DNA of 64,000 nucleotides. Source: Struthio camelus. Taxonomy: Eukaryota; Chordata; Aves; Struthioniformes; Struthionidae. The position numbers were made by a program, and so were the translations under genes. Location of the stretch: the NCBI RefSeq assembly GCF_040807025.1, contig NC_090943.1:6744356-6808355 (forward strand), in the 5' to 3' direction. The notes beneath the pieces are model-generated. The model did not search any database, was not told where the DNA came from, and was given only the letters and a program-made list of their open reading frames with translations. Below, one piece after another: positions 32,101 to 52,493 of this stretch (position 1 is the first letter of the stretch; each line of letters starts with the position of its first letter).

Positions 32101-34189
32101 GGAAAGGGCTGCTCCATGACGGCAGGAGAAGATGATCTGAAGCCCCAGGAAGAGCCCATCTGCAGAGAGGGCAGCCTCCTCCATGGCCATGCCCTAGCAG
32201 TCCCTGTGGCTGGTGAAGAGGAGGAGGAGGACGGGTTCGGGGTCTCCTGCTGCATGCCTGGGCTTTGAATGTGGTGCTGTGGCTGTATCGCAGGTCAGGA
32301 AAGCAATGGGGAAGGTCCCTCGCTGATGATGAGAGCGGATAGTGCTGCGAATGGAAGAGCAGATCACACGATATGCTCACAGGTATTTTTTTCCCTGGGA
32401 ACCTGTGTTGCCTCCTGCTTGCCAGCATTGCTCTAGAAATGAATGTCCTCGTCTCCTCCACGCTCTTCTTTACGGTTACATTGAAGGAGGAACATCATCT
32501 CCTGAACCCAAACTAGGCAGAAATGGGAGAATCCTAGCCCCTGAAGTCATGTTTCATGTCCAACAGCCTTTGTGTCCCCAAAACAAGCAAACAAGTAAGG
32601 TGGCCCTCAGCTATCCCTAATGGACTACTGCCAGATGTCTTCTTCCTCATGACCTCCACACATGTGGATAGCAGCAGTTCGGTGCTCAAAGTGGCCTTGA
32701 TGAAGCGGGAACGTCCTTTGCAAATACTTGACCCTCGGTGACGTGTCTCTGACCTAACCACCCCCCAAAACATGCATTAAGAGTCTCTTCCTAACAATAG
32801 GGCCCAGGGTTATGATGTTAGAGGCTACTTCAAACCAAAATGGTCCCTGACTTCTCCTTCCTGCCACAAGCCCCCCGTGAAACCACATCGAAACGCCTCT
32901 GTCCCTACAGCAAAAAGCCTCCAGAAGGGAACGCATCTGAGATTTTATGGCTCTACTGATATTATTTGAAGCAAACGTAAACACACTCAGGCTTATAATA
33001 AGAGGGTGTAAGAGATAGTAAGTGCAAATGACTCATTCACTGAGCTTTTCCAGGATTAGGCAGCAGCAGAAGGGCAACGGCTGTGTAAAACGGACTTTAA
33101 AAAATAATCTTCTAATAAGATTTTAATAAAACCTGTTAATAAATTACACTGCTTGACTTCAAGAACTATTTCTCCCCTGCAGTATTTTTCTGTAGAGTTA
33201 AAACCAGGATCCTCCTCGGGTGCGTGGCACCACCTCGACCGCACCGCAGGCAGTGCCGGGCTGGGAAGGGATCGCTCGGGTCCAGAGATGAACTGAAAAT
33301 CACACCTGCGGGGAGAGGTTCAGTCCTTAAAAAAAATGTGTTTTAGGCCTCATGCAACATTTCTTTTCAGATTAAGCTCAACCACCTTTTTTTTTTTTTA
33401 CACAGCTCTTGTTGCCTTTTTCTTTTTTTTGCCCTCAGTAGATTGATTTCAAAATGAAAATAAATGCCATTTTTTTGAAACCAAAGGCCTCTTCATTTCA
33501 TCGCCCCTCCAAAATTTATGCAGAAATGTTGACTTACCAAAGCCTCGCTCTAATTCTAGCGTGCGGACGTGCACTAGCATACCGCCAGTGCAGGGCCACC
33601 GCCACGTTTTTGGTACTTTCCTTGGGAGCCTGTCTCCTAGCATCGAGTCATTACATGATAATCTTGTCTCTCGTTTGAAGGAGAAAAATTGATTTTTGCA
33701 GCTCCCACAGGTGAGGAGGAAAGCTTGTGCATGCAAATGTTTAGGAGCTCAAAAACCAGCATGCAAAGCAGGAGGACCTAGGTTTATTGCCCTTTTGGAC
33801 ACCTCTCCTTCCAGACGTTTTTGGCCCCAGTGGGGCGATGCTCATCCCCATCTCTCCCACTTTGCTTCTTGTTAAATTGGAGCCACTCTCTTCGGGGAAG
33901 GCTGTGAAGAAAGGGGCAGAAGCCTAAAAACAGCTCCTCCGTTGTATTGCTGTCCTACAAAATGAGTAGGGAAAATATCCTTCGTGCAGGGGGGAGACGC
34001 ACCAAAGCCCAAGCGGCCCCAAGCGGGGCGGCGAACTCCTCGTAGGGGCAGCCACCTCCCGAACGCCCTTGTACGCCGAACGCGCTGCCACGTGCGTCAG
34101 AAGGGCTTGTCCTCCCGCACCGTTAGGCCTGTAAATTTTGGGAGGAATGCATATTTTTGATGGCAAGCGGCCCAGAACAGCAAGCTTTC
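29166..34189. other. Intergenic: unique sequence upstream of the CpG island
   Basis: It contains one MIR relic (31541-31650) and poly-T/A runs (32009-32038, 33387-33399). No exon is recognised on either strand. Confidence 0.55.
31541..31650 (-). mobile_element. MIR-like SINE relic
   Basis: CATTTGACAGTGGGGGAAAC followed by TGAGGCACATAAGGGAGG matches the reverse complement of the MIR 3' half. The copy is diverged and short. Confidence 0.6.
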
Positions 34190-36420
34190 GCTTTTGCAAC
34201 TGCCCAGTGCTGCAACCCGGCTACTTGGCTGAGCCGCGCCGGGGTAACCAGCTTTCCGCGGGCGGCGCGGCGGCGTTCCCAGAGAAACGACCTGCTGCCT
34301 TCGCTCACCGGTGACTATCGCTGTCGGAGAAAACTCCGGAGACGTTCGCTCTCGGCCACACGGAGGAGAGCAGCGTTTTTTTGGTGTGAGCTTTGCCCTG
34401 AAGTCGTTCGGCCCGGTTAAATATAGATATACACGTAGCTGTGTAAAATATATGCATGGAATATGCGACGTATGTGATTAGATATCTGTTTATCTTAGTG
34501 TGTATTTATCTATTTTTTTTTTTTATCTATTTCAGCACTTATTTACCGATTTCATCCGTTTCACCGCTCTTTCGGTCCAGGGAAAGCGTCGCCGGCGCTG
34601 CCGACGCCGTGGGCTGGCTAAGGCCTCCTTCGGCCCGGAAGCAGAGCTTTTCGGCCAGCCTTTCTGCCCGCGACGCGAGCTGCGGCCCGGAGCCTGGCGT
34701 CGTCCTTTTCACAAGCGACGCTTTCCGACAAATAAGGCCGGCGAGGCCCGGTAACGTCTCTCACCTCGCCGTCGCTAGGGCCGCAGCGCACCTGGGGCGA
34801 GTCGGGCGTAGGGCGCAGAGCGAGGCAGGCCTTCGTCCGCCCGAGACGACAAACAACGGCGCGGCGGCGAGGTTTTTCGGCGGGGGGAACATCACCGTTT
34901 GCCAACCAGCCCGGCCGCCGAGAAGCCGGGCCGTAGCTGCCGCCGGAGAGGCGGGAGGCCCCGGCGCCGCCTTTGCCGCCCCCTGGGTGTTGGGGTCAGC
35001 GCTTCACGGGCGCCATGTTGCTGCTTCTTTGCCTTTGCTGCCGCTCACAGCTCCCTCCTCTTTTTTGGGGGGCTTTTTTGAGGTTTTGTCGTCCCCCCCC
35101 CAAACCCAGGAGCAGCACCAGAGCGCCATATATATAAAATGATATATTAAGAAAGGACTGTGCCGTCCCAGTACAGACCCATCGTTTCCCAGTTGAGGTG
35201 AACAGCCCGGAGCCCGCAGCTGAACCGAAGCCTTCGCCTTGTCGCTTTGATGTCCGCCTTTCGGGGGAGAAAACCCAACTCGGAGCCCTTTTTTCACCTC
35301 GCCTCCCGGCTGCTGCCGCCGCCGCCGCCAGGTTAAACAGAAAATTTTTGTTGTTGCTGTTGTTTTTCTCTCCGAAATCCACTGGTTGGGAGGAAGGAGG
35401 AAGGAGTCGCAACAGCAAAACCCGCGTTGAGTCAAACTGAGAACAACTTCACGCAACCTACGCAGGAAAAACGTCTTACATCGTTGGAGGGTTATTTATC
35501 CTGGGGTGTAAGCGTTTACTTCTTGGGCCGTGCCGTGCCTTTAGGCTGCTTTTTTAAAGGAAAAGCAGTGCTTCGGAAGGAAAAGCCCGAAAGTTTTGCT
35601 TCAAAATGCCTTTCTCACACTCGGACACGTCTGAGGTCAGAACCGCTCGTCCCGACTGTTGGCCCTGAGTTGCTAAAGGGTTTTTGTCTTGCCCGGGACT
35701 TAGGTCACAGCAGCTTTACTACTGTTGGAACAAATAAACGCAAAGGAGAAAACAAGGCCGGCGACGGGCCGCGCCGCTGCGACTAAAGGACGCTGCAAGC
35801 AACCCGCCGCCCTCCGCGAGCCGCCGGTGTTGCAATTTCTCTCCGCCAGCAGAGCGGGCGGCTCGGGCTCGCGTGCGGGGCGGAAGCTGCCGCCTGATGC
35901 ACCTCCAGCGCACACAACAACAACAACAACAAAATAAATAAAATAAAATAAAAGAAATAAAGCCTTTTATTTCTCGTCGTTAGCCAGTAAGTCGTGAAAC
36001 CCCAACACGTCCACGAGCCTGCCCGTCATTCGGCCCGACCGTGGCGGCGCGCTGGCATACCTCATCTGCCCGGCACCAGAGGTTCAACGCCGGGTTGCTT
36101 TAGCTCAGCGTTGCATAAAGGGAATATTATGGTGCGGAAAAGGGGGGGGTGGCTAAAGAAAGGCTCTGTGTGCGCCGCCAGGACACCGGGGCCCGCGGCG
36201 CTCGCGGTCGCTGCCGGGCGTCTTTTATTAAAACCGTCTTCCTTCCCCTCTCGCGCGGAGCCGCTCGCCCACTCCGCTGCCCTGCCGAGGGCGGTGGCGG
36301 GGGGGGGGGGGTGTTCGCGTTTCCTACCGTCCCCCGGATGCTGAGCCACGGCGGCTTTAGCAGTCATCGTTTTTGCACCTGATAAAGCATCTCGCGTTTT
36401 AATTTCATCCTAAAAGCCTC
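34190..36420. promoter_or_regulatory. CpG-rich island about 2-4 kb upstream of CSRNP1 exon 1
   Basis: GC- and CpG-dense patches (34190-34420, 34560-35030, 35200-35340, 35750-35900, 36000-36330) interrupt otherwise AT-rich DNA. A YY1-like site reads AACATGGCGCC on the - strand (about 35010-35020). No open frame with recognisable protein features begins here. It may be an upstream or divergent promoter for CSRNP1 or an unrecognised non-coding RNA; direction cannot be told from the sequence. Confidence 0.5.
35914..35962 (+). repeat. Compound microsatellite (AAC)n-(AAATA)n
   Basis: Six CAA units followed by AAATA-type units. Confidence 0.9.
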
Positions 36421-36441
36421 GCGCCCCCCCGCCCCCGCCTG

Positions 36442-38372
36442 TTTTCAGGGGCCATTATGGGATCCAAACCCCTTTTGGGGACCAGCTCCAGCTTATGGAG
36501 CCCAAACCCCGTTTCAGGACCCAGATATTTTTGGGGAACCCAGAGCTCTTTCGGGAGCCAAGATTTGCTTATGGGGTCCAAGCCCCTTTTGGGGACCCAG
36601 ACCCCTTTTGGGCATCCAGATGCCTTTGGGGGGCCAACCTTTGCTTGTGGAGCCCAAATCTCTGTTGGGGACTCAAACCTGTTTCAGGGGTCAACATTTG
36701 CTTATGGGATCCAAATCCCGTTCTGGGGACCCAGACCCCTTCTGGGAACCCAGACCCCTTTTGGGGCTCAAAATCCCTTTTGATGACCCAGACCCCTTTT
36801 GAGGGCCAACCTCTGCTTATGGGATGTAAACCCATTTTGGGGGCTCAGACCCCTTTTGGGGACCAGTCTATGTTCATAGGATCCAGCCCCCTTTCGGGGA
36901 CCCAACCCCCCTTTGGGAACCCAGACCCCTTTTGAGGACCCATCCCTTTGGGCATGGCATCCAAATCCCTTTTGGGGACCCAGACCTCTTTTGGGGACCC
37001 AAACTCCTTTTGGCAACCCACCCCCCTTTTGGGCACACAGACCCCTTTCAGGGATCCAGATCTCTTTTGGTGACCCAAGCCCCTTTTGGGGATCCAGACC
37101 TCTTTTGGGGACCTAATCCCCCTTTGGGGAACCCAGACCCCTTTTGATGACCCAAATCCCTTTTGGGCACCCAAACCCCTTTTGGTGACCTATCTCCCTT
37201 TTGGGGACCCAGACCCCCTTTTGGGGAACCCAGACCCCTTTTGGTGACCCAAAGTCCTTTTGGGGACCCAACCCCCTTTTGGGGACCCAGACCTCTTTTG
37301 GGCACCCAGACCTCTTTTGGGGACCCAACGCCCCCCTTTGGGAACCCATCTCCCTTTTGGAGAACCCAGACCCCTTTTGGGCATGCAAACCCCTTCTGGG
37401 GACCCAGACCCCTTTTGGGCACTCAGACCCCTTTTGGTGACCCAGACCTCTTTTGGGGACCCAACCCCCCCCCTTTCAGAATCCAGACCCCTTTTGGAGA
37501 ACCCTGACCCCTTTTGGTGATCCCAGATCCCTTTTGGGGAACCCAGACCCCTTTTGGGCATGCAAACCCCTTCTGGGGACCTAGACCCCTTTTGAGGACC
37601 CAGACCTCTTTTGGGGACCCAACACCCCCCTTTGGGAACCCAGACCCCTTTTGGGCACGCAAACGCCTTCTGGGGACCCAGACCCCTTTTGGGAACCCAG
37701 ACCCCTTTTGGAGAACCCTGACCCCTTATGGTGATCCAGATCCGGTTTGGGGAACCCAGACCCCTTTTGGGCATGCAAACCCCTTCTGGGGACCCATCCC
37801 CCTTTTGAGGACCCAGACCCCTTTTGGGGAACCCGGACCCCTTTTGGTGATCCAGATCCGGTTTGGGGAACCCAGACCCCTTTTGGGCACGCAAACCCCT
37901 TCTGGGGACCCATCCCCCTTTTGGGTACCCATCTCCCTTTTGGGGAACCCAGACCCCTTTTGGGCACGCAAACCCCTTCTGGGGACCCATCCCCCTTTTG
38001 AGGACCCAGACCCCTTTTGGTGACCCAAACCTCTTTTGGGGACCCAACACCCCCCCCTTTTGGGTACCTGGACCCCTTTTGGAGAACCCTGACCCCTTTT
38101 GGGCACGCAAACCCCTTCTGGGGCCCCATCTCCCTTTTGGGTACCTGGACCCCTTTTGAGGAACCTGGACCCCTTTTGGTGATCCAGATCCCTTTTGGGT
38201 ACCCAGACCCCTTTTGGGGAACCCAGACCCCTTTTGGGCACACAAACCCCTTCTGGGTACCCAGACCCCTTTTGGGGAACCCAGACCCCTTTTGGGCACG
38301 CAAACCCCTTCTGGGGCCCCATCTCCCTTTTGGGGACCCAGACCCCCTTTTGGGGAACTCAGACCCCTTTGA
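36442..38372. repeat. Minisatellite A: 19-20 bp tandem array upstream of CSRNP1
   Basis: About 1.9 kb of tandem units with consensus TTGGGGACCCAGACCCCTT, roughly 95-100 copies. The units are divergent and more irregular in the first 400 bases. A variant unit with GCAAACCCCTTCTGG recurs at 37385, 37562, 37659, 37775, 37891, 37968, 38106 and 38300. The gaps (177, 97, 116, 116, 77, 138, 194) are close to multiples of 19.4. A 116-bp higher-order copy is clear from 37731 to 37847. On the - strand each unit gives GGGG and GGG runs, so quadruplex formation is possible. The array ends about 380 bases before the presumed first exon. Confidence 0.97.
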
Positions 38373-38379
38373 AGCCCAC

Positions 38380-38860
38380 CCCGTTGTGTGCCCCCCCCGC
38401 TCCTCCACTGGCGGCACCCAGCCCCGCCGCCGCCACCCCCGCGGGGCGACGATGTAGGGGGGCGGCGGCGGCGGGGGGGGGGGAGGCAGCAGCCCGTCGC
38501 CCGCGGCGGCTCCGCGCCCCCCGCCGGGGCGGTCGGCGCCCGGGCAGCGCCGCGGCGGCTGGAGGCTCCCGCCTGCCGGGCCGGCGTTGGGGTTGGGGTG
38601 GCGGGGAGGGGGGTGGTGGTGGAGGGACGGGGCGGGAAGGACGGGGAAGGAGCCGGGGGGGGGGGGGGCAGGAAGCCGGGCGGGCAGGCCGGGCCGCGCC
38701 GTCTCCTCGCCCTGTCACCGCCTGCGTCAGAGCCCCGGAGTTTTCCACTGACGAAAAAGGGCAGCGCAGCGCGGCGCGGCGCAGCCCCGGCAGCGGCAGC
38801 GGCAGCAGCGGGAGGCGCCGCGCCAGGCACCGCCGCCGCCGAGCCGCGCCGAGCCGCAGG
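38380..38860 (+). promoter_or_regulatory. CSRNP1: CpG-island promoter of CSRNP1
   Basis: Very GC- and CpG-rich DNA without a TATA box near the presumed start. Visible candidate sites are GC boxes GGGGCGGG (38629-38636) and GGGCGGG (38678-38684), an AP-1/CRE-like TGCGTCA (38723-38729), and GGAGTTTTCC (38737-38746), which fits the loose NF-kB pattern GGRRNNYYCC. Stress- and growth-factor-responsive sites would suit an immediate-early gene. Motif matches are seen; their use is inferred. A G run at about 38657-38668 could form quadruplex DNA. Confidence 0.65.
38750..38859 (+). other. CSRNP1: Probable non-coding first exon of CSRNP1 (5' end uncertain)
   Basis: A GC-rich, ATG-free segment ends at CAG|GTAGGG (donor at 38860), inside a CpG island and on the strand of CSRNP1. 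The first coding exon has its own acceptor at 46806, so an upstream non-coding exon is required, and human CSRNP1 also has a non-coding first exon. This is the best donor I see in the island, but the transcription start is not determined by the sequence. A first exon in the CpG patches at 34.2-36.4 kb or 45.3-46.0 kb is possible as an alternative. Confidence 0.6.
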
Positions 38861-38950
38861 TAGGGCTGCGGGTGCCCTGGGCTGGGGGGAGACGTGGAGG
38901 AGGGGGCGTCCTCGGGGATGCGGCTCCGTGCTCCGCCGTTGCGGGGTCGA

Positions 38951-39788
38951 GATCGGTGCCCGGAGCGGTGCCCCTCGGTCGGAGGTCCCCTACTCGGTGC
39001 CCCTCGGTCGGGGGCGCCCGCTCGATGCCCCGCGGTCGGGGGTCCCCGTCTCTGTTCCCCTCGGTCGGGGGTCCCCGTCTCTGTTCCCCTCGGTCGGGGG
39101 TCCCCTACTCGGTGCCTCTCGGTCGGGGGCGCCCGCTCGATGCCCCGCGGTCGGGGGTCCTCGGCTCGGTGCCTCTTGGTCGGGGGTCCCCTACTCGGTG
39201 CCCCTCGGTCGGGGGTCCCCTACTCGGTGCCCCTCGGTCGGGGGCGCCCGCTCGATGCCCCGTGGTCGGGGGTCCTTTGCTCGGTGCCCCTTGGTCGAGG
39301 GTCCCTATCTCGGTGCCCCTCCGTCGGGGGTCCCCGGCTCGATGCCCCTCGGTCGGGGGTGCTCGCCTCGGTGCCCCTCGGTCGGGGTGCCGGGCTCGGT
39401 TCCCTTCGGTCGAAGGTCCGCATCTCGGTGCCCCTCGGTCGAGGGTCTCTATGTCGGTGCCCCTCCGTCCGGGTGCCGGGCTCGGTTCCCCTCGGTCGAG
39501 GGTCCCCGTCTCGGTTCCCCTCGGTCGAGGGTCCGCGTCTCGGTTCCCCTCGGTCGAGGGTCTCTATGTCGGTGCCCCTCGGTCGGGTGTCCTCGGCTCG
39601 GTTCCCCTCGGTCGAGGGTCCCAGGCTCGGTGACCCTCCGTCGGGGGTCCCCGTCTCAATTCCCCTCGGTTGGGGGGGGGGTCCTCTGCTCGATGCCCCT
39701 CGGCCGGGGGCGCCCTCTCGGTTCCCCTCGGTGGGGGTCCGCGGCCCGGTGCCCCTCGGTCCGGCTCGGTGCCGGGCTCGGTGCCCGG
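38951..39788. repeat. Minisatellite B: 28-29 bp GC-rich tandem array in CSRNP1 intron 1
   Basis: About 28 units built on the core CCTCGGTCGGGGGTCC followed by a CTCGGTGCC-type spacer, 28-29 bases each and very rich in CpG. A marker variant with GGGGGCGCCCGCTCGATG starts at 39010, 39125 and 39240, an exact 115-bp spacing, so four-unit blocks were duplicated. It starts about 90 bases after the presumed exon 1 donor and is unrelated in sequence to the upstream array. Confidence 0.95.
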
Positions 39789-39956
39789 CCGCGGGGGCCC
39801 GGACGGGAGCGCCGCGGCGGGGCCGGGGGCGGCGGGGCAGAAGCGGAGGACACGGACGGGAGGGCCCCGACGGGGGGCTCCAAACCCTGCCGCCGAGGGG
39901 GGCCCGCTGCCCCTGCCCGACGGCCGTGTCGGAGCGGCAAGGTGGAAACGCTGCGC

Positions 39957-40015
39957 TATATATATGTGTATACACACGCATATATATATGTATATATGTA
40001 TGTATTTTTTTTTTT
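39957..40015 (+). repeat. TA/TG microsatellite and T run in intron 1
   Basis: Alternating TA and TGTA units with a CACACGCA interruption, then about 11 T residues. Confidence 0.85.
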
Positions 40016-40599
40016 CCGAGTTGCACTCAATTTTCCCCTTGTCAGTTAAGTCAGGAGCCTGCTCCATCTTTAAGGCTGCGGTTCCAATTTTCTGATGTTG
40101 AAAGAACCGGCGGGGGGGGTGGGAGGGGGGGGAAGGAAAAGGGGGGGGGGAGGCGGCTTGACGGCTCTCTCTTCCCCAAATTTGCCCGGCTGGGGATGTT
40201 TTCCCGTCGCTACAGCAACACCTACCGGCGTGGCCCGGCGGCTCCGGCAGCCTCCCCGCGCCCGGCCCGCCGGCCCCGGCCTCCTTTGCTCCTCGAAATA
40301 ACCAATTTGGGCTTTAGCTTGCACCTGAGAAAATATCTAGTAAAGTTTCCTCAATGTGTATTTTTTGCTTCCCCCTCCCTCCCCTCCCCGCAAGGATCTG
40401 TCACCTACGAGTTACATAATCTCGCTTTAGGAAGAGGCTGACACATGCCACAACCCTTCTCTAAAGCAGTCCCGGCTTACTAACGCGCCTAATTACAAAG
40501 CATCGGTGGGACGGGAGAGAAAACGCTCGGAGCCATTTGCAAACCTAAAAGTCAAGTCGTTTGTTACAGCAAATTATCAAGTCACCAGCAAGTGGAGGT

Positions 40600-40624
40600 T
40601 TTGTTGTTGTTTGTTGTTGTTGTT
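40600..40624 (+). repeat. (TTG)n microsatellite in intron 1
   Basis: TTG units with one extra T, about 25 bases. Confidence 0.85.
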
Positions 40625-43025
40625 TTTCTGGTTTTCCACGAGAGTTTTTTTGCTAAGCGCTTTGCGGATGAGGCCCGTCAAGGTTCAGAGGTTTATTTTC
40701 GGGATAGCGCGTTTGTTCTCCGCTCGGCGAGGCTCTGCAGCTCCTGGCAAGCCTTTAATAATTTAGTGCAGGAAATGTGTGCGTCTATATAGAAGGCAAG
40801 GTAATGCACAGTGTGTACCTACAGGAGGACAAATATGGAAACCTGGCGTGAATTATTCATAAGGTGTAATCAAATAGAGGATTTTCCTAGACAAAGCGCA
40901 CTTTGCTGTTTTCATATTTATTACAGTACAATCTGGGCTGAGTGTATTTGAACCTCATTTCGTTTGGGCCGTGTCAGATAACCTTTAATGCATTTGCTAA
41001 TGTTTCTTATTTACCTTTCAAGTTGCCAGCAAGAAATAATGGCTTGACAGAAAATATCACAGCTGGGGGCTTGCTGAGCTTTTTTTTTATTATTATTTTT
41101 GGATTTTTCCCCGTGCTTTTGAAAATTATTCGGTCAAGTAAGCACTTCTTATATTCTTCCCGGGGAAGGTGTTTTGCTTTTTCAGTCTCTGGCATGAGAA
41201 TAAACTCGTGGTACTACGAACTGATTCATGCTGCTATTCTGTGGCACCGAGTAGTTTGGGTTTTACTGTTGCATAGTAGGCAGAGTCTATTTTTAACCAG
41301 AGTAAGGTTATGAAACCTTAGACCCAGCTGAGTGAAAATAATCTGGTTGGAAGTGGAAAGCACGGCTCCCGCGCCTGGGAATACTTGCGGGGAGACGGAC
41401 CAGCTCCCGCTCTCTCCCTCGGAGGGTCTCGCCGGGCTGAGCCGCCGCTTGGCGCTCGCCGAAAGCAGCCCGGGCGCTCGCCGAAATTGGGAAGCGTCAG
41501 AGCGGAGGCTGCGACAGCGGCACGAGGGAAACCGCTTAAGTAAATATGCAGAGAATTAAAATAGTTAAATGAATGAGCCATGAATCAGGGCTGATAGCAG
41601 GCTGATTATTAAGTAACCCAGAGGCGTTGCTGGAAGCACCGCCGTGGTTAGATGTCAAGTGTGTCAGAGAGCTAAAGGAAAAGCTCAGCTTCGCACCAGT
41701 TTTTAGTAATACTCACCCCAAGGTCATCTGAGCTGCCGAGAGCGGCGGCATGCGGACGAACACCCAGCGCCTCGCCGGGAAAGAGGGCAGAAATTCCCCC
41801 CCGGTGACTCCAGCGTGGCTCCCTGAGCGTATCCAGAGTCATACCTGACCGAAATACGTGGTGGGGTTTTTAAAACTAGTATGTACTCCGGCTAGACCTG
41901 CGCAGCCACTGCAGGTCTGGGGGAGGGAGCTGGATGCGATGTGACTCATGCCTCGGCAGAATGGTTCGCCCGCTTCCAGCGCCGGATCGTGATCCGTGCT
42001 GTGCCGGCGAGAGTCCGCCTCGACTTCCAGGGCTCGTTGCGCCGGTGAAGTCAGGAGATGGGCTCAAAAAGTGAAAAATAGATACCTCTAGTGCGTTGCA
42101 CAGGAGAGGTTTCATCCTTAAGTTTTTGAGTTTTGTTTTTTTTTAAACCACATTGCTTTGCAGAGGAAAGTTGGCTTCAAACTATTCCTGCACAGATTTG
42201 GGATGCTTTGATGCTTTGGGATGCTCCACAGGCAGAAGACCACCAGTTGAAAGCATCCTTGCTCATAGAGGTCCTCCAGCAACCCTGGAGGAGCTGGAGT
42301 GGGGAAAACTGGGCTGCCAGCGAACACCGACGCTGCAAACGCTGGCCTGACTCGGAGAAGTTCATTTGCCTCACTTGCCTTGTTGCATCCCGCAAAGTGT
42401 GTAGAAAGCCCAAAAATAAAACTCAGAAACTTCTTATCCACATACTTGTGCACAAAACCATAATGTCTCTTTGTGCAGTTTGTTATAAATAGACCAACTG
42501 GACACTGATACGGGTTTTGGTTGCCTTCCTCTCTGCTTGGCTAAACAAATGCCAAACCTTCTTAAATCTAAATGACTCGAAATATTTACAGCTGATATGT
42601 CGTCCAAGAGTAGGATAGTTAAAACATTAATTCCTTGCATTCCAGTGTATTAGGGCTTTACCCTGCAACTTGCTGAGCGCCAGAAATAGGACTTAGCAGA
42701 TTCAGTTCCCTTCCCCCCAGCTAGACAGCCACCCCCACCCACTCCCCCCACCTCAACTTTAATGCTCAAAAAAAAAAAAAAAAGGAGGGAGAGAGAGAAA
42801 AAGAAAGGAATGCACATCTGGGCTAAATATTTGTTAGAAAGTATTCCCAGGATAGTGGGAGTTCTGGTGCCAGAGAGGAATTCCTGCGGGTTTGATCCAT
42901 TGCATTATGTACTTGTTCCAAAAGCTGTTTTCAGTAAAATAGATGAGTAAGAAGTCTTAGCCAAGAACAGAATGTCTTTTTTGGCAACTAAAAGGAAGAT
43001 AGGATTATTTTATTTCAGGTTATGT

Positions 43026-43075: not shown

Positions 43076-44931
43076 AGGTGGTAAAATCCTCCTGCACTCC
43101 GTGGTGCTTGGAGAGATTTGCGACTGCAAGCACAGGAGATCTTTTTCCCTTGCATGCTGCTATGCACATTCTTGTGACTTCTATGTAAGTGTATGGCTAT
43201 AAATGTGGATTTGAGGTCAAGACTTGTGGAATTACCGCAATTAAAATATCCTCACTGCGTCTGAATTGTCCTCTGGGGTTTTTTGGCTGAATGTCCAGCA
43301 GTTTCGGCGACATTGGTTTCAAGGCGCCGCTCGAGTCGCTGGCGTGAGTTCTGCTCCCAAAGGCTGGGGTCAGGAGGGGAAAGCGGTGGCTTTGCCTTGA
43401 CAATGCTGTAGGATTTTTTGGGGGGGACGGGACATGGATGTATGTAGACAGTGATGGCTGCAGCCTCACTGTATCTATAGCTCATGAGACAGATCTGAAA
43501 ATTTGACCTGGAAAATGTTCCAGCCTAAAATCAGGGAACTGGAAGAGTGGGAAGGCGTGATAGGAGAACATGAATGTGTTTTGGTTGGTGGGCAACAGGT
43601 TCTCCAGCAGCTTTCTCCCGTTAGTTGAGAATCATGTTTGCGTGATACTTACCTTGTGCTGACAAAACAACAGGTATTTTGAATACTACAGTATGCCAGA
43701 GTTTTTTATTTTCTGTATACTTGTCTTATTCTTATAGATGGGAGAGATGCGTGCACCTTCTTTCTTTCTTCTGTTCGACACGCCTAATCAAGGATGATCA
43801 TTTTTTATGGGGGAAAAAAAAAACCTTGCACTATCCAAAACACAGCTTCCTTGGCTCTGGCTTTGTGTTTGTGTTAGTCTGGATGGTTTACTTGAGACAA
43901 TACTTGGTTTTTCTGCTGCGTGGTTTGCAGGGAGGCGATGTCGCTCACGATAAGTGACGGATGCTATTGTGTTAGCAACTCGAGTCATGCAGACCAGTTA
44001 AACTATGTAAAAACGGGTGCCATCCTTTGTTCTGCTGTTCCCTTTGCCTTGGGTGTTTCTAACCCTAGTTTTTTTGGCTCGGCGTTGGAAAGGTCTTGAT
44101 GCTCCTCAACGGTGGCAGCAGCCTTTCCCTCCTCCCAGCCAGATACGTCACTGGAGGCAGGACCTGGGGCCGCGCCGAGTAAGCAGGGAGACGGGTATCT
44201 GCACTTGGGGAGAGGCGATCCCTTGAGGGGAGGTTTCAGCCCTTGGATGGGCTACACTCGGGAGGTGGTTGTGGCCAGTGGCACCGCAGGTGGTCCGGGA
44301 GCAGAAATCACGAGGGTAGTAAGTCTTACGAAGCAGCCATTCGCATTGGCGTGGTGGGGGGAAGAGGGGGTCCTGCAGCGAGTGAGCTTGGCCAGTCCGA
44401 CGTTATTTCCCTGGGACTTATCTTCATTTTAGCTGCGTGACCTTGACTACTCTACCAGCCTCCTGCATCTCCTGGAAAGCTTGGATGTAGTCAAAATTAT
44501 ACCCACGCCCATTCGTGTTTTGGTTTTTGCTACTTTTTGCAAATCCTTCTGCACAAGGGCGCTCGTCTTTGCTGTTCGCTGCCTGCTCTGCTTGCGCAGG
44601 GACTTCTCAGAGGGCTTCTTTCTCCCTCCAGTGGCTCTGAGGTGGCATCGGTGGCTGGTGACGGAGCTGCTGTTCTGGAGGCTGGGGCTTCGCAGGGAGC
44701 CGCCACCAGCCAGGAAGCCTGGAGGAGCAGAGAGGCATTGTTCTGCCACTTGCCCTTGCTTGCAAAGTTTTCGGCTGCTCCTTGTCTTCAGCTGTGGAAG
44801 TGGGAGAACCGGGCTGAGAGGTCTTCCAGCCTCTGCCGGGGCTTCTTCCAAGCACTTGCTGCCTGCAGGTAGACCGGTTTGGAGGGTTTCTGCGCTCCCG
44901 TTCATTCCTTAGAGCAAGTGGGTGCCTTACA

Positions 44932-44961
44932 CCCCCCCCCCCCCAAAAAAAAAAAAAAAAA
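44932..44961 (+). repeat. C13-A17 homopolymer pair
   Basis: A run of 13 C is directly followed by 17 A. Confidence 0.9.
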
Positions 44962-45339
44962 GAGATTTGAGGTTTCTTGTTTTGCCTTGCGTGGGCCAAG
45001 GCAGCAACGGGTTAATCCAGGTGTCAGGTAGGACACCCAGTGGCGGTGCTGATGGACACCAGCCAAATCCACCTTCTCCACCCATCTGTTTTGGATTAAG
45101 GCCAAAACACCAAGCCGTGGCCAAACCACCTGCAGCTGCAGGTCCGTGGAGAGGGACGAAGGGGGTCCGCGGGGGGCCTGTCCCGGCCCCGGGAGCGGAG
45201 CGCCGCCGCCCGGGCCCCCCTCGGCACATGCTCCAGTTAATGGTTAACTTTTTGGAACCGCAGGAACTGATTTCGTCCAGCAATTTTTAACCTTTGAGGG
45301 GCCCGCTGTCTCTCTGTTTGTAAACACGGTTAGTTAGCG

Positions 45340-46040
45340 CTTAGGCCGGGCTTTGGAGGCACCAAGCGCGCTTCTGTAGCGCCAGGTATTATTGTGCGGG
45401 CTGCTGAGATACTGCAAACGCCGTCGCTGGTGGGTTTTGACGTCCGGCGCGGGGCGACGTCAGGAGGGTGGGTGCTTTGGAGAGCTGCTCGCACGGGCAG
45501 GCGTGCAAAAGAGAGGGCGAGAAAGCGGGGGCGCTTCCGGTTGCGACGAGCGGATTTGGCCCCCTGGCAGAGCCGAGCGTGTTCGCAGTTTGCCTCGCGG
45601 CACTTCCAGCGGCTCGGCCCGAAGGGGTTTGCCGTACGTCTCCGAGGCGTCCCCGGCCGCAGCGCGGATTTCAGGGATGCCTCTGGTTTTTTGGGCGTTA
45701 TTTCCTCTTTGCTTTACGTCGCGGCGCGGCCGGTAGCGTGCGTGCTGGCTTTGCTCCCGAGACACGTTTTGCCTTTGCTCGCCCTTGGCGGTGCTTGCGG
45801 GGCGCGGGGGGCCGCTGCTTGCCCGAGCGCCGGGCTGGCCGCAGGCTGCCGAAATCGCTCGCCGAGGAAGAGGAGCGGCGGAGGCGGTGACGCGCTGCCC
45901 GGCTGCGGCACAACCCGCCAGGGATTTCTGCAAGAAGCAGGAGCGGGGCTCTTGCCGAGCGCGTCCCACGTTGGGCGGCCTGTGGGCGCCCGGCGGCGTG
46001 CTCCGTCCGCCGTGTCGTGGGCAAAGCGCGTAGCTTTCCG
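45340..46040. promoter_or_regulatory. CpG-rich patch inside CSRNP1 intron 1
   Basis: About 700 bases of high CpG density, less than 1 kb before the first coding exon and flanked by AT-rich DNA. It has long open frames on both strands, as GC-rich DNA often does, with no recognisable domain. An alternative promoter or intronic enhancer is the simplest reading. Confidence 0.4.
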
Positions 46041-46105
46041 GTCGATGTCAGGAGAAGAGGAACCTTTAGGGAAGCGAAGGTTAAAACACACGGCAAATTT
46101 GGAGG

Positions 46106-46127
46106 TTTTTTTTTTTTTTTTTTTTTT
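46106..46127 (+). repeat. Poly-T run in intron 1
   Basis: 22 T residues just 3' of the intronic CpG patch. Homopolymer length may vary between individuals or be misassembled. Confidence 0.9.
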
Positions 46128-46810
46128 GGCTTGCTTGAGGTGAGCCACGCAAAAGCACGGAGGAGATTTAGAAATCGAGGCCAGTGCCCAACTACTTTGT
46201 TTTCAATTAGCTACGTTGTTTTGAATTGCTACTATGCTTGATACATAACCCAGCCTAAGCAGGAACAGCTTATTGAATGGGGGGGCTGGCTATGAAAGGC
46301 AGCAGGAGGAGAAGGGCCGTTCTTCGCAGCTGATATATTTGTATTTCAGTGCTGCATTTAATAAGTCTGTTTCCCCAGGGGGCTATAGCAAGTAAATCAT
46401 GCCAACAGATTGTTCTCTGCAAACGGGCTTATTTTTGTAATTAGCAAGACGTTAAAGCTGTAACTGCATCGAAAGTGAGCTGGGTGAGAAGTTAACATAA
46501 AAGAATTAGTAAGCAAAACGTAATACTTACGGTTTGGTAACGTTTGCATTGATTGAATTTGCTTCCGGGCAGCTTGTTGTACGCAGCGGTTGGTTTTTCT
46601 GCGGGAAAAATGGGAAATTCGGCCGAGGTAGGCAGAGACCCTTCGTAAGGTCCGCTTATGCGGCGGTACCTGGTGGGAATTGCACCCGGGGCTGAGCCGT
46701 GCTGACTTGGTGCCTTGCCGGGGGCTGACACCATTGTGGCCCGTCACTGGGAGCTGTCATCATTTCCCTCGCTTTATTTTGCCTTTCTTTCTCCCTCGTT
46801 TTTCAGGTAT

Positions 46811-46834
46811 ATGAAAGATACGGCGCCACCATGA
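46811..46834 (+). CDS. Upstream ORF of seven codons overlapping the CSRNP1 start
   Basis: If the exon begins at 46807, as the splice site indicates, its first ATG is at 46811, in a weak context (T at -3). It encodes MKDTAPP and stops at TGA 46832-46834. The stop overlaps the main ATG (46831) as ATGA. Such an arrangement can lower initiation at the main start or couple it to reinitiation. The short peptide itself probably has no function. Confidence 0.5.
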   Translation: MKDTAPP

Positions 46835-47005
46835 GCGGGGTATTGAAAAGGAAGTACGAAGAGCTGGGGGACGACAGCACCTACTGCTCCTCCTCCTCCT
46901 GCTCCCCGCTGTCCTCCTCCTCGGCTTCCTCTGGCTGGGAATCGGACGAGGAGAGCTCCCGCGGAGACATCAAGCCCGGCTCGGCCTTAACGCCCAATTT
47001 CACCC
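46831..47005 (+). CDS. CSRNP1: CSRNP1 coding exon 1 (residues 1-58 and first base of codon 59)
   Basis: The exon opens at the ATG, in the context gccaccATGa, and ends before the strong donor GTGAGTAC at 47006, leaving phase 1. It encodes the N-terminal MSGVLKRK family start and a Ser-rich, acidic stretch. The exon itself probably begins at 46807, after a long pyrimidine tract and CAG at 46804-46806. That leaves 24 bases of 5' UTR in this exon. Confidence 0.95.
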
Positions 47006-50000
47006 GTGAGTACCTCATATCACCACTGGCAACGAGCCTCCCAGGTGCCTGGGGTCGGGCAGGCCCCCAGCGTGTTTCTGTACCTCTTGGAGCACACCTT
47101 CATGAGTGGAAGTGTCCATGACACCTGCTTCGTGTCGTTAAGCCAAACGATTTAAGTTGTTTTTTTACATCAGCTTGCGTTTTCAGGGTGGTCTTCCTCA
47201 GCCGTTCTGCCCTTCCTCATAATATTTGTTATTGATTGTTAGCTTTTTTGCAGAAGTCCAAATTTCCAAAAATAGAAACCCTATAGGACCTGAGCCTGCT
47301 GAGCCAGACAGGTGCCTTGAAGCCAGTACTGTGGGTCCATCCCCAAATCCCTAAACTCATGGTCAAACTGTTAAAAAGACAACTATTAAGCAGACAGGGA
47401 AGGCCCATAATGTTAGTTTTAAAAAATGATTAACCAGTAGCTTCATTGCCATTTCAGAGCCCGTCTCTTCAGTGAGTTGGGTGCTCTGCCAGAGACCATG
47501 ACACGTTTGACATTGCCTCCGCTGCTAGTGCAGATAAATGCAACTTTGTTTTCTCAGCAAAATCAGTTAGGAGAGCCTTTAGGAAAACACGTCGAAGACA
47601 AGATTGTAAAAATCCTTATCTGCCAGGCAAAGAATGAGAAGACAATAGGAGACCATCTTCAATGAGGAGAAATAGTCCAACCTAGTAAATTATACTGCAC
47701 GCCCACTGTATATAGCAGTTAAGGTCCACTTAGCAGACATACACAAACATGCAGTGGTCTGAAAAGGCTTTAGAAGTCTTGTAATAATAAAGAATCTCAT
47801 TCTTGCTTGTCTTCTTAGGTTTTGGGGCAAAACAATGAACTTTTTGTATTCCCTGGCTCAATTGGAGAAGGGTCAGGAATGGAAAGAACAGTTTTGGGGG
47901 GAGGTGAGGGAGAAGCGAATGCCAAAGTGTTACAGCTCCCTCGGTAAGTGATCGCGGTGGTTAACTCGCCTTTTGATAAAGAGCTAATGTTGTGGCAGAT
48001 CGAACCGAGGCTGTGATGAAAATGTGAGGCACAGTGCAGAGATAGCATCGAAGCGAGCGCGGGGCCCAGTTTGAAACCTGGCGCCAGTTAGCAGAAGCTG
48101 CTGACACAGCTGGGTAAACGCTTTTTGCAGATGCAACTGAAATGCTATATTTTGGCGAGTGAGAGCGGCGAAACGTGGACGCACCTCGCTGCCCGGTCCC
48201 GCGCTTCCCCAGCCTGCGGGGCCGGCCGAGCCCAGCGAGCCGCCGGGGTTTTGGGTTCGATCTCTGCAGCGATGGCCCGTGGCTCCGGCTCCGCAATGAG
48301 TGTGGCTGGCTCCCGGCTCTGCCACCCCCAGGACCGCGCTGGGGCCTTACTGAGCTTTTCCGAATTTTTTTTTTCCATACCGTCCACGGTGGCAACTGAG
48401 ACATCCGTGCGCCTCCTGTGAGGGATTAGCAGTGAATGGGACTGAAAACCCTCCAACGCTGAATTTGTGCTTAGCTTTTGTTGCTGCCATGCTCATATTG
48501 CAGAAAAAGCAGTTCTGTAACCCAATATTACTACGATTGGCATTCCTTTTTTTGCGGCCAGGTAGGTTCGTGGAGACTCACTGGCTCTGAGGTTGCCCCT
48601 GCCTATTAGTCCGCCTCCATCTGTTGCGTTCGCGCCAGCAAATGTGCAGAGCCAGGTATCCCTGGAGAGGCTCTGCTTTAAATGGGGTGTAGCGTGTTTC
48701 AGCAGCTTAAGATAAACCAGAGTCGTGTTTTGCCATGTTTACCCCGGGATCACCTGCATGGAGATTAACATCTTTGCAGCTGCTCTCAAATGAGCCTCTT
48801 GAGAATAAACTATAGATTCGTAGTTCCTCCCAGAGGATGGTGAAAGGAAGTACCAGAAAAACAGCCGTTTCGGCTATGTTGTGCTCGGTTACAAAAGCCC
48901 CAACTGCGTGCCGCCGCAGCGTCTGCGCTCGGGCATCCCGGGAGCGGACCTCGCCATCCCAAACGCGGGACAGGCAGGGTGCTCCGCTTTGAAGCAAGAC
49001 GAGCCCGTAGGATGGTTTTTTGCTTGTTCGTTATGCGCTGCTGCACTTGAAGAATAAGCAAATGTGTGTTTCCTGGAGGAGATCATGCGGGAAGGAGAAG
49101 CAGCAGCCGTTTCTTAGGGTGAATCTGCTCAGCGATTCTGCAGCATCAGGACTTGGCTTAGCTCCTCTCCATCCATTTGCCCTCTTTGGGGAGTTAGATC
49201 CTACAGCACAAGGAGCCTTCAGCTAATCCTGTGACCTTTCCCTGCCACGTTGCTCTGGAGAGAGTAATTGCGAGTCCTGCCTTTGCGTAATACTTACAGC
49301 CCTCTGTTTCCGAGGGTGGCCCTACTGACTTCATGTGCTTTTTCCATTTTTAGCCACGTCTATCCTGAAGAAATCCAAGCGACTAAAGAAGAACAATGTG
49401 GAGTTTGACCGGGTCACTGTGTTTTACTTCCCGCGCTGCCAGGGGTTCACGAGCGTGCCTAGTCGCGGTGGCTGCACCCTGGGGATGGTGAGCAAGCACA
49501 GCGCCTCCAGGCAGTTCACTCTAGCAGAGTTCTCAAAGGAGCAGGAAAATGTCCGTCGGGAGAAACTCGAAGAGAAATTAAAAGAAGAGAAGTTGGAAGC
49601 GTTGAAATGGAAAGTGAGTAAGAGCGGGAGCGGGTGACTATTCGTAGTTAATAGTCGTTTTTTATTCGAGGCCTCTCTGGGAACTCAAGGCGGAAGTCCT
49701 TGACCTTGCTTTGATCTCCAAAAAACATAGGCTCCAACATGGGATTTTCAGCTCTATTCTCCACCCTTGGAAGGTGGCAAAAAAGATGCTGAATTCCATA
49801 TGTTGGGTGTCTGCCAGGTCTTTAGGTGAGACCTTAAGGAGGGGCCTGTGCCCTCCGTGGCCTTTGGGTTCTCTGGGAAAAGTCAGGTTTGTCCTGGGGT
49901 CCGAGCCCCAGAGGTTGATCCTGGAGGCTGCCACCATTGGAGCAGCTCTTCCCTTTCTAGTTTCTCCCGACCCTGGGTGTTGGCAACCGCTGATTTGGTC

Positions 50001-52493
50001 CCTTTTCCACAATTTTCCCGGCTGTGCGGAGCTTGGTGGTCACAGCGGGTCCCTAACGCTCTGCCCATGCTTTGCTCCCAGCTGACCATGAACGGCACAA
50101 AGGAGTCAGAAGAGGCCAACCAGCTCACCATCGAAGACATCTCTGACGACGACATTGACGTGAGCAACGTGGACCTGGAAGACGGCTTCTTTCTCCAGCC
50201 CTACCCAGCCAAGAAGAGGCGGGCGCTGCTCAAAGCCATGGGGGTGAAGAAGATCGACAAGGAGGAGAAGCGGGAGCTGCACAACATCCGCCTGTCGCGG
50301 GAAGACTGCGGCTGCGACTGCCAGGAGTTTTGCGATCCGGAGACCTGCAGCTGCAGCTTGGCGGGCATCAAGTGTCAGGTAGGGCGCTTCGCCGCAGCTC
50401 CCAGGCAGCGTGCCATCACGCGTCCTGCCTGACGGAGAAGGAAAGGGGAGGGCACTGGATGGGGGACCCGAGCGAGAGCGAAACGTGAGACTGCACGCAG
50501 CAAGTGAGTGCACGGGCAGCAGTGCCAGAGGGAAAAGCCGAGGCTCCAGCTGGCTCATGGGTATTAAAAGCAGGCTGGTTTTGAGCAAGAAGGACAGAGC
50601 TAAGCCACCCTGTAAAACGCATTCATTCTAACCAGCGCTTAGAAGAAAGCCGGCAAGAAATGCTTCCGGAGACCTCATCCACGTTGCTGGAAACATCAGC
50701 CAAGCGTCAGCCCATAGCTAGTTGTAGAGACCACCAGCAAACCAAGCTGGTGGAGTAATTCCTATGTTTTCAGTTAGGGAATTTATTTATTTTTCCTCTG
50801 ATGGCTACCTGCCCACCTGTGTTCGGGGAGGCATATTCCATATTTTGGGGGCCGCTTACACACTAGGTGCTGTGGTTAGAGGATGGGTTTGTGCGGGGAG
50901 GGTATGCACAGGCTGGTGCTCTGTACATGTGTCACAGCCCCCCTCTAGTGGCTGGTCATAATTCGCATGTGACGGTACCACAGCTGCCAGGTAGACAATT
51001 TGTTCTCCCACTCAGAAAAGGGTAAAAGCTCATGGTGTACATATATATTAAATACCATGATGCATATCTGTTAAACCTCATATTTGCCCTCTGTTCTCCA
51101 CATATATTTCCTTTCTAAGGGTTAATACTTTCCATTTCTTTTTCCCTGTTAACTTTCTTTCAAGTGCACGGTCTTAAGTTGTTCAATTCATCGTTTTTTT
51201 ATGACGATCCTCCAAAAGAGCAGAGTGCCTTCTTCTATTCTTCTTTTTTTTTTTTTCCTAATCTTCCTCTTAGCTATTATTTTGCGCTGCAAAGGTGGTT
51301 TCTCAGTCAGTGAGTAAAGGGCGGTTTCAGTTTTACTAAGCCGTGCTTTGCATGATTTCACGTCGTGTTTTCCTTGCTGCAGTAGCTCTTGCAGCGTCTA
51401 GGCAAAGAGAGGCCAGGGGTAGGGCACCATCAGGCATGCATTGGTCTAACCCTATGTTTGCTTGTTCCCACGACAGATGGATCACACGTCGTTCCCTTGC
51501 GGCTGCACCAAGGATGGCTGCGGAAACACTGAAGGGCGAATCGAGTTCAACCAGGCCCGCGTGCAGACCCACTTCATCCACACCATTATGAAGCTGGAGC
51601 TGGAGAAGAAGCAGCAGAGCAGCGAGAAAACGGCCGAAGGCGCCGAGTCTTCCTTCCGGGAGAGGCTCCATCAGTTCGGGTGTTCGGTAGGGAAAACAGT
51701 CTTCGAGGAGAGAGCGGTGCCCCTGACGCCGGCCTTCCAGTTCAACATGGACCTGGAGACCATCGGGGAGAACAGCTGCAGCAGCGACATGACGGACTCC
51801 TCCATCTCCTCCAACCCCAGCGAGGACCTGGAGGAGCCCTATGAGAACGGCCCCTCCGACAAGTCCCAGTCGGACGTCGACGACGACGGCCTGGCGAGGA
51901 TCCTCCACTTCAACGACTCCGACGTCGAAGAAAACAGCAATAACTGCCAGGACAACTTGAGTTGCTTCCACCCTGCCGATTTCTTCAGCACCAGCATCGA
52001 AGAGCAGTGCGGCCCCGGCACGGAAAAGGCCAGCGCGGCGGGGACGGGCTCCGGGCATCTTTCCCACCTCTCCGAGTGCCTGGATGAGAACGCCAACCAG
52101 GACGCGAGCTGTTTTCTGGACGAGGCCGCCCACGCGCACTGCGATGGGCTTTCTTGCTGCGCTTCGTCCTCGGCAGAGCAGTGCTCCAAGAGCTACACGG
52201 ATCTCAGCCTGTCCTCTGACTCCTTGGATTTCTTTCAGTCCTTCTCAGACTATAACTTGGGACCTCTGTATAACTCCTTAAAGGAATACGAAAACCTCGA
52301 TAACTTCTCAGCGTTACAGTTTCAGTTGCCTAATTTCCCTGGCTTCCCGCAAGCTGGAGATCAGGGCTCCTGCTTCTTGGAGTCTCTCATCGGCTTGTCT
52401 GAATCTGTCCCAGAAACCCCGGCCCCTTTCACAGACAATCAGCTTTTGGAAGATGCCATTAAGTCATCGCTAATGGAAACGGTGAAAGTTTAA
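46831..52493 (+). CDS. CSRNP1: CSRNP1, cysteine/serine-rich nuclear protein 1 (full coding span, 4 coding exons)
   Basis: Join 46831-47005, 49354-49613, 50082-50378 and 51477-52493. This gives 582 codons and TAA, close to the human length of about 589. Family knowledge: a nuclear, sequence-specific DNA-binding transcriptional activator, induced as an immediate-early gene and by AXIN1. Seen: a Ser-rich N-terminus (residues 19-35); a basic stretch K64-K71; the family block [20 protein letters not shown] (79-98); an acidic segment (163-179); KKRR at 189-192, a likely nuclear localisation signal; a Cys-rich core with Cys 221, 223, 225, 229, 234, 236, 243, 252, 254 and 259; then an acidic, Ser-rich C-terminal half (342-393) fitting an activation domain. 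SRGGC rather than SQGGS after SVP, and [10 protein letters not shown] and [13 protein letters not shown] in the tail, separate it from CSRNP2 and CSRNP3. The start has a strong context (gccaccATGa). All three introns between coding exons are GT-AG. No break or frameshift is seen. Confidence 0.97.
47006..49353 (+). other. CSRNP1: CSRNP1 intron between coding exons 1 and 2
   Basis: GTGAGTAC to TTTTTAG, 2.35 kb. Mostly unique sequence, with a modest CpG-rich patch near 48160-48310. Nothing else is recognised inside. Confidence 0.9.
49354..49613 (+). CDS. CSRNP1: CSRNP1 coding exon 2 (codon 59 to residue 145)
   Basis: The acceptor is a T-rich tract ending TAG at 49351-49353. The split codon restores P59 in FTPTSILKK, the family sequence. 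The donor is GTGAGTAA at 49614. It encodes the conserved basic segment, the [17 protein letters not shown] block and a charged helical stretch rich in Glu and Lys (about 115-143). The exon is 260 bases and ends in phase 0. Confidence 0.95.
49614..50081 (+). other. CSRNP1: CSRNP1 intron between coding exons 2 and 3
   Basis: GTGAGTAA to CTCCCAG, 468 bases, phase 0. No internal feature is recognised. Confidence 0.92.
50082..50378 (+). CDS. CSRNP1: CSRNP1 coding exon 3 (residues 146-244)
   Basis: The acceptor is TTTGCTCCCAG ending at 50081 and the donor is CAG|GTAGGG at 50379. The exon is 297 bases, phase 0 at both ends. It encodes the acidic segment with EDISDDDID, the [12 protein letters not shown] block with a likely nuclear localisation signal, and most of the Cys-rich core ([24 protein letters not shown]). 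The close spacing of cysteines suggests metal binding, which is an inference. Confidence 0.96.
50379..51476 (+). other. CSRNP1: CSRNP1 intron between coding exons 3 and 4
   Basis: GTAGGG to CGACAG, about 1.1 kb, phase 0. It has a T-rich stretch near 51240-51260. No repeat or RNA gene is recognised. Confidence 0.92.
51477..52493 (+). CDS. CSRNP1: CSRNP1 coding exon 4 (residues 245-582 and stop)
   Basis: The acceptor is TTGTTCCCACGACAG ending at 51476. The exon starts [10 protein letters not shown], which completes the Cys-rich core (Cys 252, 254, 259), and continues with the conserved [16 protein letters not shown] block. The remainder is acidic and Ser-rich, with [12 protein letters not shown] (342-353) and [16 protein letters not shown] (378-393), as expected of an activation region. 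TAA is at 52491-52493. Confidence 0.97.

Follow-up and report, generated by a model that had tools for sequence, protein, structure and literature searches.

The window analysed here, 64,000 nucleotides of Struthio camelus contig NC_090943.1 (positions 6,744,356 to 6,808,355 of the forward strand), contains an intact CSRNP-family gene on the + strand, together with a GC-rich segment presumed to hold the promoter and untranslated first exon of this gene and two minisatellite arrays that lie on either side of that segment. Exon 2 (46807-47005) carries the ATG at 46831, and its frame alone has no Pfam match; it is followed by coding exon 3 (49354-49613), coding exon 4 (50082-50378) and coding exon 5 with the stop (51477-52493), the last two of which match PF16019. 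When joined, the coding parts (46831-47005, 49354-49613, 50082-50378 and 51477-52493) form 582 codons with one terminal stop and GT-AG introns, and the CSRNP_N domain PF16019 is aligned over positions 2-218 of 218 (E 9.3e-108), covering the first 421 of the 582 amino acids. The first-pass annotation of this DNA had named the gene CSRNP1; the domain match establishes the family, and the assignment to paralogue 1, which is probable, is based on the human C-terminus. A neighbour-gene scan of the nine other open frames of the window gave no Pfam match at E 0.01. Of CR1-like 8-mers just four turned up, each isolated, and they carry no weight for or against a bird origin. The acceptor at 46807 opens exon 2 24 bases ahead of the ATG, and at least one untranslated exon is therefore required upstream.

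The presumed promoter and untranslated exon 1 occupy a core at 38371-38859 (+ strand) with 82% GC and a CpG o/e of 0.88; taken over 38371-38860, the values of 0.82 and 0.88 exceed the CpG-island thresholds of GC >0.5 and CpG o/e >0.6. Two CRE-like sites are found in the core, at 38722 and 38749, and the kappaB consensus is matched at 38561 and, more loosely, at 38737. In all, 20 motifs were tried; the consensuses for TATA, CArG, the CRE palindrome, CTCF and EBF had no match in the core or in either array. A bacterial-type promoter scan of the core, a type of scan unsuited to vertebrate DNA, found 0 promoters. The core ends at a candidate 5' splice site, CAG/GTAGGG (38857-38865, + strand; intron from 38860), whose nine bases are also those of the donor of CSRNP coding exon 4. 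With an approximate weight table for splice donors this site scores 4.93 and ranks second among the 490 GT sites between 38371 and 46789. The gap of about 380 bases that was placed between the first array and the exon would require an exon start near 38750.

The two minisatellite arrays, their polarity and CpG content

Array 1 (36459-38370, no strand assigned) consists of about 99 units of 19-20 bp with the consensus GGGACCCAGACCCCTTTTG, and its 5' part is degenerate and its 3' part homogeneous. Array 2 (38955-39786, no strand assigned) consists of about 29 units of 28-29 bp with the consensus GGTCCCCGGCTCGGTGCCCCTCGGTCGGG, and its 5' part is the more homogeneous. TRF reports array 1 with period 19, 98.9 copies and a score of 1473, and array 2 with period 29, 28.7 copies and a score of 801; the top TRF scores in 200 dinucleotide shuffles of each array were 105 and 115, respectively. 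Array 2 also has a higher-order period of 115 bp, or four units, with a TRF score of 921 over 38966-39761. Wrap-around alignment split array 1 into 99 unit rows, mostly of 19-20 bp, and array 2 into 29, mostly of 28-29 bp. Both arrays are thus recovered where the first-pass annotation had described them as directly visible, including its estimate that array 2 starts about 90 bases past the donor (95 bases from the intron start at 38860 to 38955), and both are minisatellites in the sense of many head-to-tail units of about 10-60 bp, repeated beyond chance. They are the only substantial minisatellites that TRF finds in the 64-kb window: elsewhere, no TRF row with a unit >5 bp exceeds 4.1 copies. 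A TTTTC/TTCTC microsatellite of about 137 bp lies far upstream of the gene, at 11810-11946.

Alignment of the two consensus units is no better than alignment with shuffled units, since fractions of 0.62 (forward) and 0.09 (reverse complement) of 1000 shuffles reach its score. A common origin of the arrays is therefore unsupported, and the earlier description of them as unrelated is fair. Within each array there are marks of recent block copying, namely a 62-bp exact repeat at 37862 and 37939 in array 1, four units apart, and a 49-bp exact repeat at 38984 and 39214 in array 2, eight units apart.

Polarity was measured as the best identity of each unit to any other unit of the same array, against position. 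In array 1 this identity rises toward the presumed exon (rho +0.63; +0.71 for 58-bp windows), and in array 2 it drops away from the presumed exon (rho -0.49; -0.67 for 58-bp windows). Exact duplicates follow the same course: in array 1 the fifth and sixth sixths hold 13 such units of 16 and 12 of 17, the first and second just 2 of 16 and 2 of 17, and by successive sixths of array 2 the counts are 3 of 4, 3 of 5 and 1 of 5, then none in the last three. Because neighbouring units are related, the series were rotated by circular shifts; the observed polarity was reached by 3 of 99 shifts for array 1 and 3 of 28 for array 2, zero shift included. Simulations of growth by uniform duplication (18 settings of 150 runs each, with runs of undefined correlation dropped) never reached the polarity of array 1, and between 0.8% and 22.7% of them, depending on the settings, reached that of array 2. 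Taken together, the rotations and simulations indicate clear polarity in array 1 and no more than a suggestion of it in array 2. Measured as identity to the consensus, the trend in array 2 has rho -0.26 (p 0.18; 6 of 28 shifts). In 58-bp windows array 1 is slightly more homogeneous in its fifth sixth than in its last (0.952 versus 0.897), which places the peak of homogeneity short of the very end. The prior chance that both polarities would aim at the exon is about 1 in 4.

The arrays also differ in their CpG content. Array 1 stands between the exon-1 core and an upstream CpG-rich segment (34000-36440, no strand assigned; GC 0.58 and CpG o/e 1.08 over 34459-36458). Within a CpG-rich block at about 34.0-40.8 kb, bins of 200 bases hold 7-33 CpGs in 34000-36399 and 38400-40799, and the bins fully within array 1 hold only 0-4, leaving a CpG-poor gap of 1.9 kb. 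The CpG o/e of array 1 is 0.09 (14 CpGs in 1912 bases); its consensus unit has no CpG, so this low value need not reflect decay, although a unit type that recurs has TpG or CpA at 5 of its 10 CpGs. In array 2 the CpG o/e is 0.90 (105 CpGs), and TpG+CpA are depleted (o/e 0.52). Among the cells of array 2, transitions affect 12 of 221 in CpG columns and 29 of 448 in the remaining columns of C or G; by direction, C>T is slightly commoner at CpG columns (7 of 111 versus 10 of 224 elsewhere), and G>A occurs in 5 of 110 cells there versus 19 of 224 elsewhere. Overall, array 2 has no excess of CpG decay, as expected of an array that is unmethylated in the germ line or recently copied. The earlier idea of an effect through methylation is thus half supported: array 2 looks like part of an undecayed CpG island, and array 1 is a CpG gap. 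A TATA-like run, TATATATAAAATGATATATTAAG, at 35129-35151 within the upstream CpG-rich segment (34.0-36.4 kb) might mark a separate start of a non-coding transcript.

CEB1 is the type minisatellite whose units form G-quadruplex motifs, and a mechanism of this kind was rejected here: the motif, taken as four runs of 3+ G with loops of 1-7, occurs 0 times in both arrays on either strand. A G4Hunter value of -1.2 is reached in 7% of the 25-base windows of array 1, and such motifs as occur nearby are found within the core and at the very start of the intron (38589-38613, 38624-38646 and 38863-38889). In single-strand folding of one stretch per array on both strands, the array 1 samples were somewhat better than shuffles (z -2.1 and -2.2), and those of array 2 no better (z +1.2 and -0.2). 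A coding role was likewise rejected for a stop-to-stop frame of 599 amino acids at 37190-38989 (- strand), which runs across part of array 1 and the core: it has no Pfam match, and an open frame is expected of a repeat without stop codons. No RNA family reached its gathering score, and a pattern taken from array 1 had 0 matches in viral contigs.

Proposed origin and competing explanations

We put at about even the chances that the arrays are by-products of repeated local copying in or beside one CpG-island promoter. Under this account, two minisatellites would have been born independently and would have grown through repeated local copying around the same promoter. Birds, which lack PRDM9, would recombine preferentially at CpG islands; breaks near the open promoter, repaired within or between alleles, may have added and copied units, with the latest copying in the exon-facing parts of both arrays. 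The account is supported by array scores far above those of shuffles and by homogeneity on the exon-facing side, strong in array 1 and weak in array 2. The transition counts at the CpG columns of array 2 also speak for it, and the slightly commoner C>T at these columns speaks against it. In the zebra finch, where PRDM9 is absent, the share of crossovers falling within 100 bp of a CpG island is 23.7%, above the expected 17.5% (PMC12047795). That work describes no enrichment of recombination at transcription starts after correction for CpG islands, and the promoter itself may therefore be of no importance. The pattern of polarity could also be left by growth in two phases or by plain replication slippage; moreover, the position of exon 1 is assumed and the polarity of array 2 is weak. 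We think it unlikely that the mirrored arrays, each freshest on the side facing the promoter, preserve a record of past meiotic breaks around a bird promoter free of PRDM9, with length alleles as a by-product that continually resets spacing and CpG context. If this were true and general, promoter-flanking minisatellites in birds could give the position and history of hotspots from single genomes, and a general mirrored polarity would link CpG-island recombination in birds to minisatellite growth.

Several other explanations bear on whether the arrays are real, where they came from and what they surround. GC-rich bird promoters with repeats, such as those of DUSP1 and EGR1, are a known source of assembly error (PMC5632298, in the part available), and the arrays or their copy numbers could have arisen in this way. 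This is very improbable, however, given that the window lacks any N, that the units are diverged, with 51-mers occurring just once in their own array at 98.3% of positions for array 1 and at 100% for array 2, and that the longest exact direct repeats measure 62 and 49 bp; with such uniqueness and such short exact repeats, long or accurate reads could resolve both arrays. Nor is it easy to regard the arrays as expanded copies of a neighbouring exon border, by the exon "stuttering" for which bird introns with locally expanded repeats, present in alleles of different length, offer a documented parallel (PMC12954441). A BLASTN comparison of both arrays with the remaining window, including the exon core, gave a single 19-base match (E 0.54), located well away from the gene start, and hence no sequence nearby that could have served as a source; we give this origin scarcely any probability.

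The placement of the arrays around a promoter depends on which first exon is used. A second CpG-rich island at 44900-46139 (+ strand; CpG o/e 0.98 over 44900-46100) is a rival first exon, near whose end the donor GAG/GTGAGC (intron from 46140) scores 5.94 and ranks first among the 490 GT sites, ahead of the donor at 38860; it sits 0.7 kb before exon 2. If CSRNP1 mainly starts in this island, at about 45-46.1 kb, both arrays lie upstream of the gene and flank no promoter. Against this, the 38860 donor closes one of the most GC-rich stretches examined (0.82), the CRE-like sites cluster just upstream of it, and it is identical to the donor of coding exon 4. We consider a main start in the second island unlikely, and the exon ending at 38859 the likelier first exon, though not proven; both donors may be used. 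The first-pass annotation had taken the core as the CSRNP1 promoter and exon 1: its CpG richness, two CRE-like sites and exon-4-identical donor favour that claim, and the better-scoring donor at 46140 leaves it unproven. The island at 44900-46140, with the best-scoring donor, is in its own right a possible alternative first exon of CSRNP1. A further reading gives the arrays a function, as promoter VNTRs whose length tunes CSRNP1 induction; array 2, close to the 5' end of intron 1, would supply kappaB-like sites that recur along it, and array 1 would set the spacing to the upstream CpG-rich segment or separate it. Human VNTRs that are commonly polymorphic show enrichment at transcription start sites, and expression differences were found at 193 of 1071 tested gene-VNTR pairs (PMC8096271, available part). 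Among birds, the presence of repeats adjacent to the DUSP1 promoter correlates with specialised expression in vocal learners, but this link is correlative and chicken DUSP1 is without repeats, as far as the accessible sections of PMC3410896 describe. Array 2 holds 8 strict matches to GGGRNNYYCC on either strand (7 on the + strand) over about 29 units, but a kappaB match occurs in 4.5% of shuffled 29-bp units and 20 motifs were tried; given this number of motifs and the repetition, the enrichment is not significant and is a lead at most. Regulation of CSRNP1 through array length is possible, yet as a whole the functional reading seems to us decidedly unlikely. Any influence of the arrays on CSRNP1 is probably slight, since they lie outside the core, which has candidate control sites of its own.

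Precedents and possible consequences for CSRNP1

Promoter and first-intron minisatellite VNTRs are familiar in humans from the insulin VNTR and HRAS1, and the HRAS1 minisatellite, which contains kappaB-like sites, has a 28-bp unit close in length to that of array 2. MS32 is a polar human minisatellite beside a meiotic hotspot. The polar human minisatellites found beside meiotic hotspots (PMC2599865, available part) resemble the arrays described here in that one array end is more recently copied; there, mutants were observed, whereas here polarity is read from a single sequence and is weak for array 2. Human VNTRs near transcription starts, such as those upstream of CSTB and in the first intron of DPYSL4, likewise have tandem units close to the start, but the evidence for them is an association of genotype with expression, while two unrelated arrays here surround one presumed exon (PMC8096271, in part). 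The intron stuttering of chicken dot chromosomes (PMC12954441, excerpted text) shares with the present case a local tandem expansion inside a bird intron, and differs in that no exon-border source was detected here.

The closest precedent is DUSP1, which is also an immediate-early gene in birds with repeats beside its promoter that are hard to assemble. Its tandem repeats, termed a microsatellite in the available parts of both PMC3410896 and PMC5632298, have a largest region of 578-2817 bp, depending on the species, about 10 bp upstream of the 5'-most CRE (PMC3410896). Two zebra finch haplotypes differ in the main repeat region (796 versus 720 bp) and in a smaller neighbour with 11 versus 8 repeats of 20-21 bp (PMC5632298). 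In the available descriptions the DUSP1 repeats are not placed on both sides of a first exon; in hummingbirds they lie 3' of the CRE sites near the start codon, and in chicken there are none. The spacing also differs, at about 10 bp from repeat to CRE in DUSP1 versus about 350 bases from the end of array 1 to the two CRE-like sites, and DUSP1 is length-polymorphic between haplotypes, whereas the CSRNP1 arrays are known here from one sequence. In chicken (galGal4), 12,310 minisatellite arrays above a set size make up 1.27% of the assembly (PMC4992247, available part). The DUSP1 repeats, the enrichment of human VNTRs and the chicken count together suggest that there is nothing exceptional in finding a minisatellite close to a promoter in a bird. 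The arrays are real and neatly placed, and are probably an ordinary consequence of a GC-rich bird promoter. A non-exhaustive literature search found no description of such arrays at CSRNP1/AXUD1, which agrees with the earlier view that the arrangement was undescribed; that view is tempered by the close precedent at bird DUSP1 (PMC3410896 and PMC5632298, in the parts available).

If the arrays vary between individuals, CSRNP1 would be, like DUSP1, an immediate-early gene of birds whose promoter has unstable surroundings. Chick AXUD1 (CSRNP1) is a Wnt-activated neural crest gene (PMC7846109), so that variants in expression could be visible. According to this source, the chick AXUD1 promoter makes contact with a region some 55 kb upstream of it, and AXUD1 has a tissue-specific enhancer, Axud1E1, that is active in chick neural crest; the window analysed here reaches upstream of the presumed exon 1 for only about 38 kb.
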